Below are positions 35,422 to 41,968 of a stretch of DNA of 64,000 nucleotides, piece by piece. The stretch is from positions 1,364,001-1,428,000 of the forward strand of contig AP026126.1 of assembly GCA_030295235.1 (NCBI GenBank), read 5' to 3'. The position numbers were made by a program, and so were the translations under genes. Every line of letters begins with the position of its first letter. Position 1 is the first letter of the stretch. Below the pieces are notes generated by a model. The model was not told where the DNA came from and ran no database searches. It saw only the letters and a list, made by a program, of their open reading frames with translations. The stretch comes from Fistulifera solaris. Lineage: Eukaryota > Bacillariophyta > Bacillariophyceae > Naviculales > Stauroneidaceae.

Positions 35422-36981
35422 ATGACTACCGCGTCAATTTCATGTGCCATAGACCGTAATGATGCGAGCATCCCGGCGGATACTTATTGTTCACGAAAGG
35501 ATGAACAAAGACTTCAACAAACGGCGGAGGACCGTGACGCAACAGAATATCGCAATCCGCTCATGAATTTCTTTGGAAGCAATAACACCCAGCGTCTCGA
35601 TCACGACGAAATAGAGTTGGATGATATTCGTGTTCTTTCTTTCGTCAGCCGAGAGCGCGAACCCGAATTCGACGATTGCCCCGAATACAGCTATGATTCT
35701 GACAATGAAAATACCTCGCAGGACGATTATCACGTGACACATGGTTCCGACGAGGCAGACGAAGTCAAATCTTTGCAAACCTACATTCTCGGAAAGAAAT
35801 ATCATCCCGTTAACGACTACACGCTTCGGAGAGAGGACGAAATATCACTATTTTGGTTCACCTATCGCTGCGATTTCCCTGAAATGAAGCCATATCGAAT
35901 TCAAAGCGATGCCGGCTGGGGTTGTATGCTGCGATCAGCTCAGATGATGGTCTGTCAAGTCCTACGACTACACTACAAATCACGTACATGGAGACCTCCC
36001 AAGTCGTTAGCAGCACGGCGACAAGACCCGTTCGTCAGGAGATTGATGACTTGGTTTGCCGATTTTCCATCGACCACAGAATGCTTTTATTCCTTCCAAA
36101 ACATGGTAGCGGCTGGACTGAACTATGATAAATTACCCGGCGAATGGTACGGACCTGGCACGGTGAGCTTTGTCATTCGCGATTTAGTAGCCATGCACGA
36201 CCAACAGCGGCAAGAGTTCGGCAAGCCTCTATTTCGAGTGCACGTTGCAAGCCAAGGGACTGTGTACCGTGACGAAATTCGCCGACTAATGATACAAGGC
36301 GCAGTAACCGCTGTTCTTACAAGTGGACAAAGTGCATCGAGGCCCCGTGCTGCGCATCCGTTGGACCACGCTGCTTGGGAAGAAGATCGTCTCGAAAAAG
36401 TACCCGATTGGGACACTGCTTTGCTGCTGTTAATCCCTTTGCGCTTGGGTCTGAAAACGTTCAATTTGGACTACGTCCGACCACTTGCTCATACCTTTTC
36501 GTTGCCCCAGTCTGTCGGCGTTTTAGGGGGTCGCCCACGGGGAGCGCGGTATTTTTACGGCGCATTTTCCGATGGATCGAAAATCTTTGGTCTCGATCCG
36601 CATACTGTTCAAGCTGCGCCGCAGCGAGCTTCTGTTAGCATCAACGGAGAACTGTCGTCAGTGATAGATTTATCGGACAACTATCTTCGGTCCATACATA
36701 CAGCCGACCCCGAATCTATTTCCCTCGAGAAGATGGATCCGAGCATCACCCTAGGTTTTTATTGTGAAAACGAACGTGATCTACAATTTGTTTTTGAAAG
36801 CGTACAACAGTGGAAGAGGACACACCCTGGGTCACCGGAGTTGTTTACGACGGCAAATTATTCGCCGGACTACGCAGCAAATGTTTCGTCAACCATGAAG
36901 AAAATCATGCTATCCAGTTCCTCGCTCATTGACACGGAAGATGATCAAATAAGCGATGAAGATGACTATGTCATGCTGTGA
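35422..36981 (+). CDS. ATG4: Autophagy cysteine protease ATG4
   Basis: An intact 519-residue frame. The catalytic core carries SDAGWGCMLRSAQMM with Cys168 as nucleophile, and IFGLDPHTVQ with Asp392 and His394 completing the triad. FWFTYRCDFPEM, YSFQNMVAAGL, WYGPGTVSFV and SVGVLGGRPRGARYFYGA are also typical ATG4 blocks. The N-terminal 110 residues are acidic and low-complexity. The C-terminus ends in Asp/Glu-rich EDDYVML, and Y-x-x-L / ED-x-Y motifs could serve as LIR (ATG8 binding) sites. ATG4 processes ATG8 and deconjugates it from lipid. A fragment of the gene is duplicated 550 bases further on. Confidence 0.93.
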   Translation: MTTASISCAIDRNDASIPADTYCSRKDEQRLQQTAEDRDATEYRNPLMNFFGSNNTQRLDHDEIELDDIRVLSFVSREREPEFDDCPEYSYDSDNENTSQDDYHVTHGSDEADEVKSLQTYILGKKYHPVNDYTLRREDEISLFWFTYRCDFPEMKPYRIQSDAGWGCMLRSAQMMVCQVLRLHYKSRTWRPPKSLAARRQDPFVRRLMTWFADFPSTTECFYSFQNMVAAGLNYDKLPGEWYGPGTVSFVIRDLVAMHDQQRQEFGKPLFRVHVASQGTVYRDEIRRLMIQGAVTAVLTSGQSASRPRAAHPLDHAAWEEDRLEKVPDWDTALLLLIPLRLGLKTFNLDYVRPLAHTFSLPQSVGVLGGRPRGARYFYGAFSDGSKIFGLDPHTVQAAPQRASVSINGELSSVIDLSDNYLRSIHTADPESISLEKMDPSITLGFYCENERDLQFVFESVQQWKRTHPGSPELFTTANYSPDYAANVSSTMKKIMLSSSSLIDTEDDQISDEDDYVML

Positions 36982-37136: not shown

Positions 37137-37331
37137 ATGTGGTGCAAAAGCTGCGAGAGCGATGCGAGACGCATAGATTGAATACCGCACCGGCAAAGAA
37201 AGTGCATCCACAATCGCACTGGTACCCAATTGTTTGCTGAAGCATGTGATCCGTTTGGAAGCACCACAACAATAAAAAAATGCACCATGGCGCGCAAAAC
37301 TTTTATTGCTAGTAACAAATGAAAACAAAAA

Positions 37332-37423
37332 GAACGCTCATAAGACCGGCACTCTAACCACTGAGTTACTAGGGCATTAGCAATACCCTAGACGGGGTTT
37401 GAACCCGTGGCCTCCGGCTCACT
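37332..37423 (-). tRNA. Circularly permuted tRNA-Ile (anticodon UAU)
   Basis: On the minus strand the 3' half comes first (about 37421-37384), then an 8-nt spacer TTGCTAAT (37383-37376), then the 5' half (37375 down to about 37337). Joined in normal order they make a full cloverleaf: acceptor GCCCTAG with CTAGGGT (one G-U), D arm ACTC / GAGT with loop AGTGGTTA, anticodon stem CCGGT / GCCGG with loop CTTATGA (UAU), variable AGGCC, and T arm ACGGG / CCCGT with loop TTCAAAC. A-box-like TAACTCAGTGG and B-box GGTTCAAACCC are present in reversed order. Flanks AACGCT and AGCGTT can pair, which would hold the two ends as a splicing-endonuclease substrate, and TTTTT (37331-37327) follows as Pol III terminator. 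No ordinary tRNA can be drawn from this region. G37 is unusual for an Ile tRNA. Confidence 0.85.
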
Positions 37424-38968
37424 AGCGTTAGGATTAATTATCTTATCCCCAACTCCCGTGTGGATATTAGCAAAACGCGACATTTTTATTGTATATAAAA
37501 TGTACAAATCTATAAAAAGCACATAAAACAAATTATCTGGTGATGTAGTTCATCCGTAACTTTTCTTTTCAACCGTTCCACCTCAAAATTCTCACCCTGG
37601 TCACTATCAGCGCCATGGTCGTATAGTCAAAACAGGTTTGCGAAATCGTCGGAGGCACTATTTGCACGTCAAAGTTTATGCGGTTTCAATACAAGTGCTT
37701 CTTTCGATGCTCTACTGCTCTTTCCCTTGCTTGCTCTTCCCCCAAATCTGGAGTAGAAAATATGCTGGTCTTGGAATTGAACCAGTGGGTCTGCTTGGTG
37801 TATATTCACAACCCAATGCCACCCAGGAAGCGTGTTTACTGGCGTCCTTGTGGGTCCTGAAAACACCAAGTACTGTCGTTGCCCTTCTGTTTGATGTTTC
37901 TTTTGGTTGTTGGCTTGATGGATAACCCCTAGCGGCAGGAGATTTCCACATCTATTGTTTGTACAGTCTATGTCAGCATGGTACATGTTTGGCCTCTCTT
38001 CAATTTTTTCCAGTATGACATTCAACGGCGAATCAAGAGAAACTTACAGTCCTCCTTATAACACCCGCAACCGTAAAGTGATCTGAAATGAAATTTTCCC
38101 ATCCACTGTGCTAACCTTCATTTGGATGGGGACGTGTCTTCGGGTTAGGGAGTTATAGGCATACGTCTATTCGTCATTGACATGTAGAAAGAGGCTTTCC
38201 CGCCAATTATCAATGCCTTTGCGGAAGCGATTCATGTCGCGAAACAGTGTGTGTGTATCATACATTTTCTTCTTTTCAATATCAGAAGAAATTCAGAAGA
38301 AGATTCTGATGAGTCTCGATGGCCTTTCAACAGGCAAATGATAGTAAAACTTACCTTTTGTTTTGCATCAGATTGTGTTTCTTGTTGTTATCTGACCGAG
38401 AAATCCAAGCTGGCTTTTCAGTTCGACCGTCGTAAATTGTCAATAAAGACCGACAAAGCACATCTCAACATGACAATTTTGTGGCTCTCCAAGACTGATA
38501 TCCCTCAACCTATTTTCAATGCTCTGAGAGGGTTCCTTTTAATTCAATTGCAATATTCCAACTGTCCTCATTGACAGAGAATGGTTGAAGAGACATGTTT
38601 TGCGAGTTGCGAAATGTGTGTCGGTGCGCCAAGGAGAACTGTCCCAATTTCCGGCCTTTGTCATACATGTTAGCCCGGCTTCAACTAAAACAATACAAAA
38701 GAATCACTAGAGTCGCGATCAAACTATCATTCTTCGACGAAAAATACTGTCAGAACTAGCATCGTTGTCGAAATGAGTGTACTGTTAAGCTGTATGTACA
38801 AAATAAGAGTTAAGGATATCTCCGCGAACAGCAGCTGTAATAAAGCGACCATGGTGACCAGTAACCACACATCATGAATATGAAAAAGTGTGGCCGTTTC
38901 TGTCGCCTCCGCATTTTTACAAACAATCTTCATTCGAATTACTTCATCCTGGCTTACCGATAATACAA
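37424..38968. other. Gene-poor stretch between the tRNA and LSM2
   Basis: About 1.5 kb. ORFs on both strands are short, lack domains and overlap each other (for example 37638-37925 plus and 37669-38025 minus). No second tRNA cloverleaf was recognised. It may hold noncoding transcripts or decayed sequence. Confidence 0.3.
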
Positions 38969-39433: not shown

Positions 39434-41968
39434 TTATTGAGAAGATTTGAGAACTTCTACAGTGAGGACCCAAAATTTAGTACCAACGTGCAGCCCGTAT
39501 GGATTCGCATCAGTCCCTATTTCTCCAGCAACAAGCTCTTCTTGGTAAATAATGCGGCCAAGGACAAAGTCGGGTGACCCCTTGATGCAATCGGTCGACA
39601 GGTAACGATGCGGACAATTCGTATGAAACGCAAGATACATCCGCTTGCCCCCTGTACCGCGACCAGTAGGCATGAAGAGACCAACATCCCCTATGCGGAA
39701 GCTGCTATGACTTATTTTGTCATTGAGCTGATTCGATGCCTCTAATTGATGCGTCGCTTTTTCCAAAAGAACCTTGGTCTTGTCTAGTTCTTTTCGAAGG
39801 GCCACAACTTCCTCTCCGGCAACATCAGCCGCACCATCCTTAGCGCGTGCTTCTTCAATGTAGGCTCGAGGTGGCTTGGCGCCTAAGCGTTCCAAAGTTT
39901 GTCGCAGGATGCAGTTCTCGTAAGCGAGAGTCTTTGCTTCGGCCTCAATAGCAGTGTTTGAAGCAGGATCGAGAATGATCTCATCTCCACTTTGTTCATC
40001 CGCACTGACAATCAAGTGTTCCGGCTGTTGAGCTGGTTCTTGCCCCGCTACCGCGGCACTTGTCATCATATTCGCACTTTGCTGCGGGTGATGACTCTCG
40101 GTGGTAAGTGTTGATGCACTGCCCCCTCCTTGCTCGGCAACTGTGGCGCTTTGCTGCATCAAAGCATCTGCGGCTGAATCCGCAGCGGACGACATCCCAA
40201 CGTTTGGTATTGTGTCCAACTCCACTAGCGCCGGAAGCTGCGGTGTAAACAAGGGAGGAGGTGTAGCCAAAGTAGGTACAAAAATGTCATAAAACGCCGG
40301 CATCAAATGTCGCCCTGCCCCCCTCAAAAACTTTTCTCTCGCTCGGACCTCGTCATCTCTCATTGCCGCCACGCGATCCATCATCGCTGTTGCCGACGCC
40401 ATGACCGCCTGACCATAGGCTCGGCGACGGCGGAGCTCCGACAGGAAGACTCGATACGATTCAGGAAGTTCAGAAACATGTTCTAAGTGAATCATATTTT
40501 CGGCTTGCTGCACAAGCGCTTCCCGAAGAACACCAACGCTAGACAGAACTTTCTGTATCGATGACTGAGCCACACTGACTTCCCGCAGCCTGGCTTTCAT
40601 ACGCCTCATCATACGATTCTTTGCATCAGCCACACTCGCCATCAATTCTTTAAGTTGTTCATCATCTTTCCGCATTTGCGAAACCAAATCCTTTGTCGAA
40701 TTCGACATCTCGCGAAGAGGAGTAAAAACATTCTGTATCTCGTCATCGCTCTGAGAGTTCATAGCATGCGTTATCCTTTGAACAGCATCCCGATGAGCAT
40801 TTCTTAGCATATCCAGTCGCTGCGCTTGCGCTTCATTTATATTTTGGACTGCCTCTTCAACTTTTGACCAAAGGTTGTTGATTTCGTTTTCGGCGTCGTG
40901 ATCTCTTTGTGCAATATCTTCACGGGAAGACGGAGAAGCAAGCTGATTGAATGTGATTTCAAGCTCTCCAAAAGGGAAAGGAGCCTCTGATGAGAATGTA
41001 GGCATTGCGTAGCCCATGCTCGCTCACGCTCTACAGGAACCGTGTCAAGGAGGTTATCCATATTGCGTCCAGCAGCTCGTGCTATCGACACTAATGATGG
41101 ATGCAAAGGGATTGTAGCCAAATTCGAAAGAATAGAATCAAAGCGCTGCAAAAGAGCTCCGTGTGCGGACGTTTTTGCTTGAAAGTTTGCCGTAAATTCT
41201 GCACGTGTTCGGGCCGCCCCATGATAATGGTCTGAAAGATTCGAGACTGCGGCACGCAGAGATCTAGCCATGACCGCCTGCTCCTGCACGCATGATCGAC
41301 AAGCTGCCATGCGAAGATCTGCCCCGTCGGCTAAAACACGCCCTTGGGACATGTGAAGCATAAATTGTCGTTCAAAAGCAAACAAGGGAAGATGCAAAGG
41401 CGGGGCCCCGCTGGGATCGAGCGACAAAGGACTCGGTCCAGGTGCTTCCGTTGGTAGCGTAAGAGTAGTGGGTTCCAGATGACATATAGGAGGGTCGGGT
41501 GCATTTTCAGACAAATCAAGCTTCGAGAATAGAAAAAGGCGTTTCGCACCCGAACGCTCAGATCTTGTCAAAAGAGTTCTTGGTTTAGTGACATCTTCTT
41601 GGATGGGGTCATCTTCCATATCCCCCAGACGCAAAGCATTTAATATTTCCTCTGATTGTAAAGTTGTATTTTTGGGGACTTTGTACGGTGGTCCTAAAAG
41701 AAGAATTTGATTTTGTGGAGGGACAGCAGCGGCCAAATGACTGCGAAGATTTGTCACCCTGCGAAGCAAGAGGCCCATCAGAGAATACGATACAGAACGA
41801 TGGAGGAAGTACAGGACCGCACTTCTATACGAAGCAGTTTCGGAATCAAAAGAGAAACATGAACAGAATAGCATTTCCATCATCTATCACTACCAAGAGT
41901 CTTCCGCAGTCACAGAAATTGCTGACTTACGTGAGTTCTGAAAGCTGCAGCTTTATCTTATAGGTCAT
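39434..41968 (-). CDS. ATG11: ATG11/FIP200 (RB1CC1)-like autophagy scaffold
   Basis: The C-terminus holds a Claw/ATG11 domain: SFRIGDVGLFMPTGRGTGGKRMYLAFH, then PHRYLS, VLGRIIYQEELVAGE and LHVGTKFWVLTVEVL, like the FIP200 claw. Upstream are long coiled-coil helices and a region rich in Ala/Gln. The N-terminal region has NQILLLGPPYKVP and RLFLFSK, matching the ubiquitin-like start of FIP200, plus an ERERAWATQCLHSHQ helix typical of ATG11/17. Exon 1 (41968-41931) and an intron (41930-41825) are inferred from splice sites in phase. One missing base lies in the run at 40970-40973. The corrected length is 809. It would tie the ATG1 kinase complex to cargo. The N-terminal residues are the least certain part. 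Confidence 0.75.

Follow-up and report, generated by a model that had tools for sequence, protein, structure and literature searches.

Probable circularly permuted genes for tRNA-Ile(UAU) and other tRNAs in the nuclear genome of the diatom Fistulifera solaris

In the diatom Fistulifera solaris, we identified a locus that is very probably a nuclear, circularly permuted gene for tRNA-Ile(UAU), with its junction between positions 37 and 38 (type II) and with maturation via an RNA circle. The locus lies in a 64-kb window (the whole stretch of DNA that was analysed). As had been predicted from the letters of the window alone, the 3' half of the tRNA is encoded ahead of the 5' half on the minus strand (37419-37339), and just 8 bases separate the two (Table 1). 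RNA from this gene would probably have to be circularised before it could work. From their sequences, at least two further types of tRNA in this genome, Cys and Arg, look as if they share the permuted plan.

If the halves of the Ile gene are rejoined at 37/38, they yield a 73-mer that ARAGORN calls as tRNA-Ile(tat), both for the locus in the window and for a second copy that is described below. The complete cloverleaf of the original prediction is thereby confirmed: there is a 7-bp acceptor stem (with one G1.U72 wobble), a 4-bp D stem, a 5-bp anticodon stem (with one U31.G39 wobble), and a 5-bp T stem. The marks of ordinary tRNAs that are described for rejoined permuted genes are U8, R15:Y48, G18G19, U33, and U54U55C56 (PMC3978253), and the rejoined Ile sequence carries T8, G15 and C48, G18G19, T33, and TTC. 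No CCA is encoded (TTG follows A73), as is required of a eukaryotic permuted gene. In the unrearranged 64-kb window, neither ARAGORN nor Rfam (at its gathering scores) called any tRNA; this silence is predicted for a permuted gene.

Position 37 of the Ile tRNA, beside the anticodon UAU, is G, a point that the original prediction had passed over. Because the bases GA are common to both ends, G37 stands for any nearby choice of cut. A37 is the usual base next to the anticodon UAU, and G37 is unusual; a G there would bar the usual t6A37.

Table 1. Parts of the Ile gene in the window, and the permuted Cys and Arg genes elsewhere in the genome
Feature	Location	Strand	Remarks
3' half of tRNA-Ile(UAU), A38-A73	window 37384..37419	-	encoded first; A38, 3' anticodon strand, variable region, T arm, 3' acceptor strand, discriminator A73
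8-nt spacer TTGCTAAT	window 37376..37383	-	separates the two acceptor ends
5' half of tRNA-Ile(UAU), G1-G37	window 37339..37375	-	encoded second; 5' acceptor strand, D arm, anticodon UAU
Leader strand AACGCT	window 37424..37429	-	complementary to the trailer AGCGTT
AGTG	window 37420..37423	-	immediately precedes the 3' half; the 3' cut presumably falls between 37420 and 37419
Trailer strand AGCGTT	window 37333..37338	-	pairs with the leader sequence; the 5' cut presumably falls between 37339 and 37338
T5 run	window 37327..37331	-	presumed Pol III terminator
A box, T8-G19, TAACTCAGTGG	window 37358..37368	-	downstream of the B box; from the sequence
B box, G52-C62, GGTTCAAACCC	window 37395..37405	-	upstream of the A box; from the sequence
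Permuted tRNA-Cys(GCA)	L072 1486-1565 (C3); L074 1486-1565 (C4)	+	
Permuted tRNA-Arg(ACG)	L073 1483-1564 (C3); L075 1483-1564 (C4)	-	
Third permuted Arg copy	L076 1485-1570 (C4)	+	about 6 kb from the second Arg copy (L075), and inverted

Fistulifera has been called allopolyploid (PMC12159174), and the Ile gene has a second copy. Our DNA searches covered an assembly of 51.7 Mb in 61 contigs, and a 161-base stretch of the Ile locus matched one other genomic locus, on the partner contig C5, at 86% identity. The C5 copy retains the permuted order. All 27 pairs, including six pairs in the flanks, hold in both copies (the window's copy is on contig C6). Three changes between the copies are double and compensatory, and one is a single change that keeps the pairing: the T stem has two of the double changes and the single one, and the acceptor stem has the third double change. 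The covariation of these two sequences, taken by themselves, is not significant, since the same level was attained in 58 of 500 shuffles. The two copies do not differ in the anticodon arm or at the junction, the loops are kept too, and the 5' half is identical at 36/37 positions. What counts against a simple picture is that the spacer (8/9) and the nearby flank downstream (65/81) are better conserved than the 3' half (29/36).

To look for other permuted tRNA genes, we searched the genome with a pattern in which the B box precedes the A box. This pattern had 33 matches, as compared to 19 in a reversed control; it fixes a single form of the D loop, so other permuted genes may escape it. Seven of the 33 are permuted loci (two Ile, two Cys, and three Arg), and six are on contigs C57-C61, which we take to be organellar because of their clusters of tRNAs.

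We also trained a covariance model, R1, on three of the permuted sequences, which came from the Cys and Arg genes. No Ile sequence was used in its training, and the spacers were masked with N because the real spacers made MAFFT misplace gaps. R1 found the Ile locus in the window with 56.9 bits (E = 4.8e-14, although the E-values are rough) and the C5 copy with 46.7 bits. The second-best site in the 64-kb window scored 10.2 bits (E = 3), and the best score in 60 other loci, 30 of which had been picked as tRNA loci, was 19.4 bits. Among the 30 B-then-A matches with loci, only the seven permuted loci scored above 17 bits. A conventional Arg(UCG) gene (L022) had a weak R1 match (18.9 bits), and reading its sequence shows no 3' half.

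Read from the sequence, the Cys and Arg genes also rejoin at 37/38, and in each of them the 5-bp anticodon stem is perfect. Position 73 of the Cys genes is U, which we take to be a mark of tRNA-Cys in eukaryotes, and the loop of the Arg genes, CUACGGA, is presumably the same as in other tRNA-Arg(ACG) from eukaryotes. The Cys copies on C3 and C4 are identical in both halves (36/36 and 36/36), while the spacer matches at 4/8 positions and the 80 bases upstream at 33/80. For the two sound Arg copies, the halves are identical at 36/36 and 35/36 positions and the spacer at 7/10. The T arm of the third Arg copy is disturbed by extra bases and this copy has no TATA-like site; it is probably decaying.

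We placed the seven permuted loci in one alignment, which combines different isotypes and had been fitted to the structure. In it, 97.3% of 147 cells are paired, and there are double changes at 15 of 21 pairs. The number of cells with double changes (41) exceeds that of all 500 shuffles. The number of pairs with double changes was reached by 3 of 500 shuffles, and the number of pair types by 265 of 500.

Could the locus instead encode a non-coding mimic of tRNA, similar to YrlA (a Y-RNA-like RNA), which sits on a basal stem and is never cut or made into a tRNA? Descriptions of YrlA give it a basal stem and a tRNA-like domain that resembles the D, T, and acceptor arms. It is the only Rfam family to respond to the permuted loci when thresholds are relaxed, and its model (RF02553) matches five of the seven permuted loci at E values of up to 1 (25.8 bits for the Ile locus in the window and 34.5 bits at best). 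But none of these scores comes near the gathering score of 69, and mimicry would leave unexplained both the three anticodons with matching anticodon stems and the absence of detected conventional Ile, Cys, and Arg(ACG) genes. We read the weak response to YrlA as reflecting the same order of arms, not kinship, and we consider mimicry to be very unlikely.

We give equally little weight to the idea that the Ile locus is a dead relic of a formerly permuted tRNA gene. G37 would fit with this, as would the existence of a decayed Arg copy; but unlike that copy, both Ile copies keep their loops, junction, and 27 pairs. It is barely conceivable that the halves are chance neighbours, either unrelated fragments of tRNAs or the inner halves from a tandem pair of conventional tRNAs (such tandem tRNAs do fit the same box pattern on the organelle-like contigs), because the halves complete each other's acceptor and anticodon stems, on two contigs. 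In addition, at none of the seven loci did the 600 bases upstream contain a further 5' half, or the 600 bases downstream a further 3' half, that scored above shuffled sequences. Given the R1 score, the copy on C5, and the parallels from Cys and Arg, the best reading is the one originally predicted, namely that this diatom has a circularly permuted gene for tRNA-Ile(UAU).

We did not find conventional counterparts of the permuted genes. When we compared the rejoined tRNAs to the whole assembly, all of the matches (4/4 for Ile, 4/4 for Cys, and 6/6 for Arg) were to the halves at the permuted loci, and there was no conventional copy of any of the three; the search ignores common words and would therefore miss a conventional gene that has diverged strongly. 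The genome does contain conventional nuclear tRNAs, such as Thr(UGU) on C23 and C24 and Arg(UCG) on C23. (The Rfam search for tRNAs scored 63 of 1908 candidates, so it is of no use as a census.)

We also tried two patterns for conventional genes. The pattern for conventional Ile(UAU), in which a C-U-UAU anticodon loop comes after an A box, had 34 matches, as compared to 79 in the reversed control; it needs G10 and one spacing of the D loop, and would miss A10, which the permuted Ile gene has. Five of the 34 had three or four D-stem pairs, including an identical pair on C15 and C16, and the C15 match lies inside an open reading frame, with no tRNA there. A broader UAU pattern was uninformative (1469 matches, versus 1708 in the control).

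The original prediction had suggested that the window's gene might be the sole source of its tRNA, and that the genome should be searched for a conventional tRNA-Ile(UAU). Only permuted loci turned up in our DNA search, and the second permuted copy on C5 means that this locus is not the only one. A tRNA-Ile(AAU) that carries inosine might read AUA as well, so the argument for essentiality is stronger for Cys(GCA) than for Ile. On balance, we lean slightly towards the view that the only cytosolic genes for Cys(GCA), Arg(ACG), and Ile(UAU) are permuted in both subgenomes, that translation depends on circularisation, and that AUA is decoded by a tRNA with G37. If a permuted gene is indeed the sole source of tRNA-Cys, then circularisation would be essential, and this could be tested in a culturable alga.

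A run of at least four T's lies within 11 bases of the 5' half at all seven permuted loci. For Ile, the run is T5 on C6 and T4 on C5, and each starts 8 bases past the 5' half; the run in the window is the presumed Pol III terminator. TATA-like sites were found upstream of both Cys genes and of two of the three Arg genes (the decayed copy being the exception), at -39 to -50. Upstream of the Ile genes, the only such sequences are ATAAAA on C5 (at -28) and TATAT on C6 (at -78), and the first 50 bases upstream of the C6 copy contain no match to the TATA-like pattern. Both the A box and the B box that were predicted for the Ile gene are present, but ordinary use of TFIIIC is doubtful because their order is reversed. 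Ordinary use of TFIIIC is considered doubtful for permuted genes in general (PMC3978253).

The 6-bp helix of AACGCT with AGCGTT is found in both Ile copies, and it extends six bases beyond 37423, where the original prediction had ended the gene. That these flanks are complementary was correctly foreseen, but their proposed role in holding two open ends together is not what the minimum-energy fold of the precursor shows: the anticodon loop pairs with the leader, in a stem that crosses the junction, and there is no textbook bulge-helix-bulge. Folds of the Ile precursors with an open junction are 8.0 and 10.0 kcal/mol above the minimum, due in part to a longer acceptor stem. The minimum-energy folds of the rejoined tRNAs are cloverleaf-like, and some are inexact, as in the D arm of the C5 Ile copy. 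The leader of the Ile gene (window 37420-37427, minus strand) and that of the Arg gene L075 end alike (GCTAGTG, GCTAGTGT); this common ending is possibly a shared junction signal.

In the red alga Cyanidioschyzon merolae and in green algae, permuted genes are reported to be expressed as one RNA, which is cut at the junction by the splicing endonuclease and ligated to form a circle; RNase P and tRNase Z then remove the spacer and CCA is added (PMC3978253). We propose a similar route in F. solaris. One transcript would contain the leader, the 3' half, the spacer, the 5' half, and the trailer, and would end at the T run. Pairing of the leader with the trailer would bring together the two ends at which the anticodon arm is interrupted. 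Both strands would be cut at 37/38 by the tRNA splicing endonuclease, and a ligase would seal the ends to give a circular RNA. RNase P and tRNase Z would then cut out the 8-nt spacer, after which CCA could be added. For the Ile tRNA, we infer transcription, cutting, circularisation, ligation, charging, and use by the ribosome.

Some of the enzymes for this route have candidates in the genome. The domain of the splicing endonuclease (PF01974) was found on C19 and C20 (49.3 and 48.8 bits) and on C10 (27.4 bits, with a cut-off of 27), and 2'-phosphotransferase (PF01885), of the 5'-phosphate ligation route, was matched on C9 and C10. A search of the genome did not find RtcB. RNA ligase PF09511 had no match in the genome either, and the control for this search was also silent; according to a review, homologs of Trl1 occur in diatoms (PMC4090602). 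We expect the ligase to be of the Trl1 type.

As for how permuted genes arise, the favoured model is that an intron-bearing tRNA gene was duplicated in tandem and that the outer halves were then lost (PMC3978253). Under this model, the complementary flanks would be the remnants of a split intron.

A 2014 survey lists 34 permuted genes from six algae and one archaeon, and none of the listed genes is from a diatom or is for Ile(UAU) or Arg(ACG) (PMC3978253). Our search of the open literature, which was not exhaustive, found no report of a permuted tRNA gene from any diatom. The closest parallels are in the prasinophytes Ostreococcus and Micromonas, whose genes are also of type II, with the junction at 37/38, a short spacer, and no intron, and which also have a permuted Cys(GCA) gene (PMC3978253). 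They differ from F. solaris in that our host is a diatom and in that Ile(UAU) and Arg(ACG) are missing from the 34-gene table (PMC3978253). In C. merolae, as in F. solaris, the 3' half comes first and a T run lies downstream; its spacers are of 7-74 bases, TATA-like sites are frequent upstream, and the circular intermediate has been shown there (PMC3978253). However, C. merolae is described as having several junction positions and extra introns, whereas the Ile, Cys, and Arg genes of F. solaris all have the junction at 37/38.

The nucleomorph tRNA-Ser genes of the chlorarachniophytes Bigelowiella and Amorphochlora are also reported to have the junction at 37/38 (with a spacer of 5 bases in B. 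natans), but these are Ser isotypes and they reside in a relict green-algal nucleus rather than in the host's nucleus. In the green alga Auxenochlorella, the tRNAscan-SE set is described as incomplete, with permuted genes filling the gaps. Bacterial YrlA likewise is said to have a basal stem that bears tRNA-like T, acceptor, and D arms, but it has no anticodon arm to rejoin.

If there truly are at least three permuted isotypes in a diatom's nucleus, then this extends permuted tRNA genes to the stramenopiles. The diatom set would suggest either another gain of permuted genes or a wider spread, which may have been overlooked because standard tRNA finders miss permuted genes. Also, since each gene is present in F. 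solaris as two diverged copies, they form a natural experiment on which parts matter.

The YrlA model, which responds weakly to positions 37330-37429 (minus strand) of the window and to L001, L002, L072, L073, and L074, could serve as a crude finder of permuted genes. In a collection of viral contigs, the 5' halves of Ile and Arg, as exact patterns, had 0 matches each. Finally, the Ile gene sits between genes for an ATG4-type peptidase (C54; window 35422-36981, plus strand) and for a protein with an ATG11 domain (39434-41017, minus strand), so both of its neighbours are related to autophagy.
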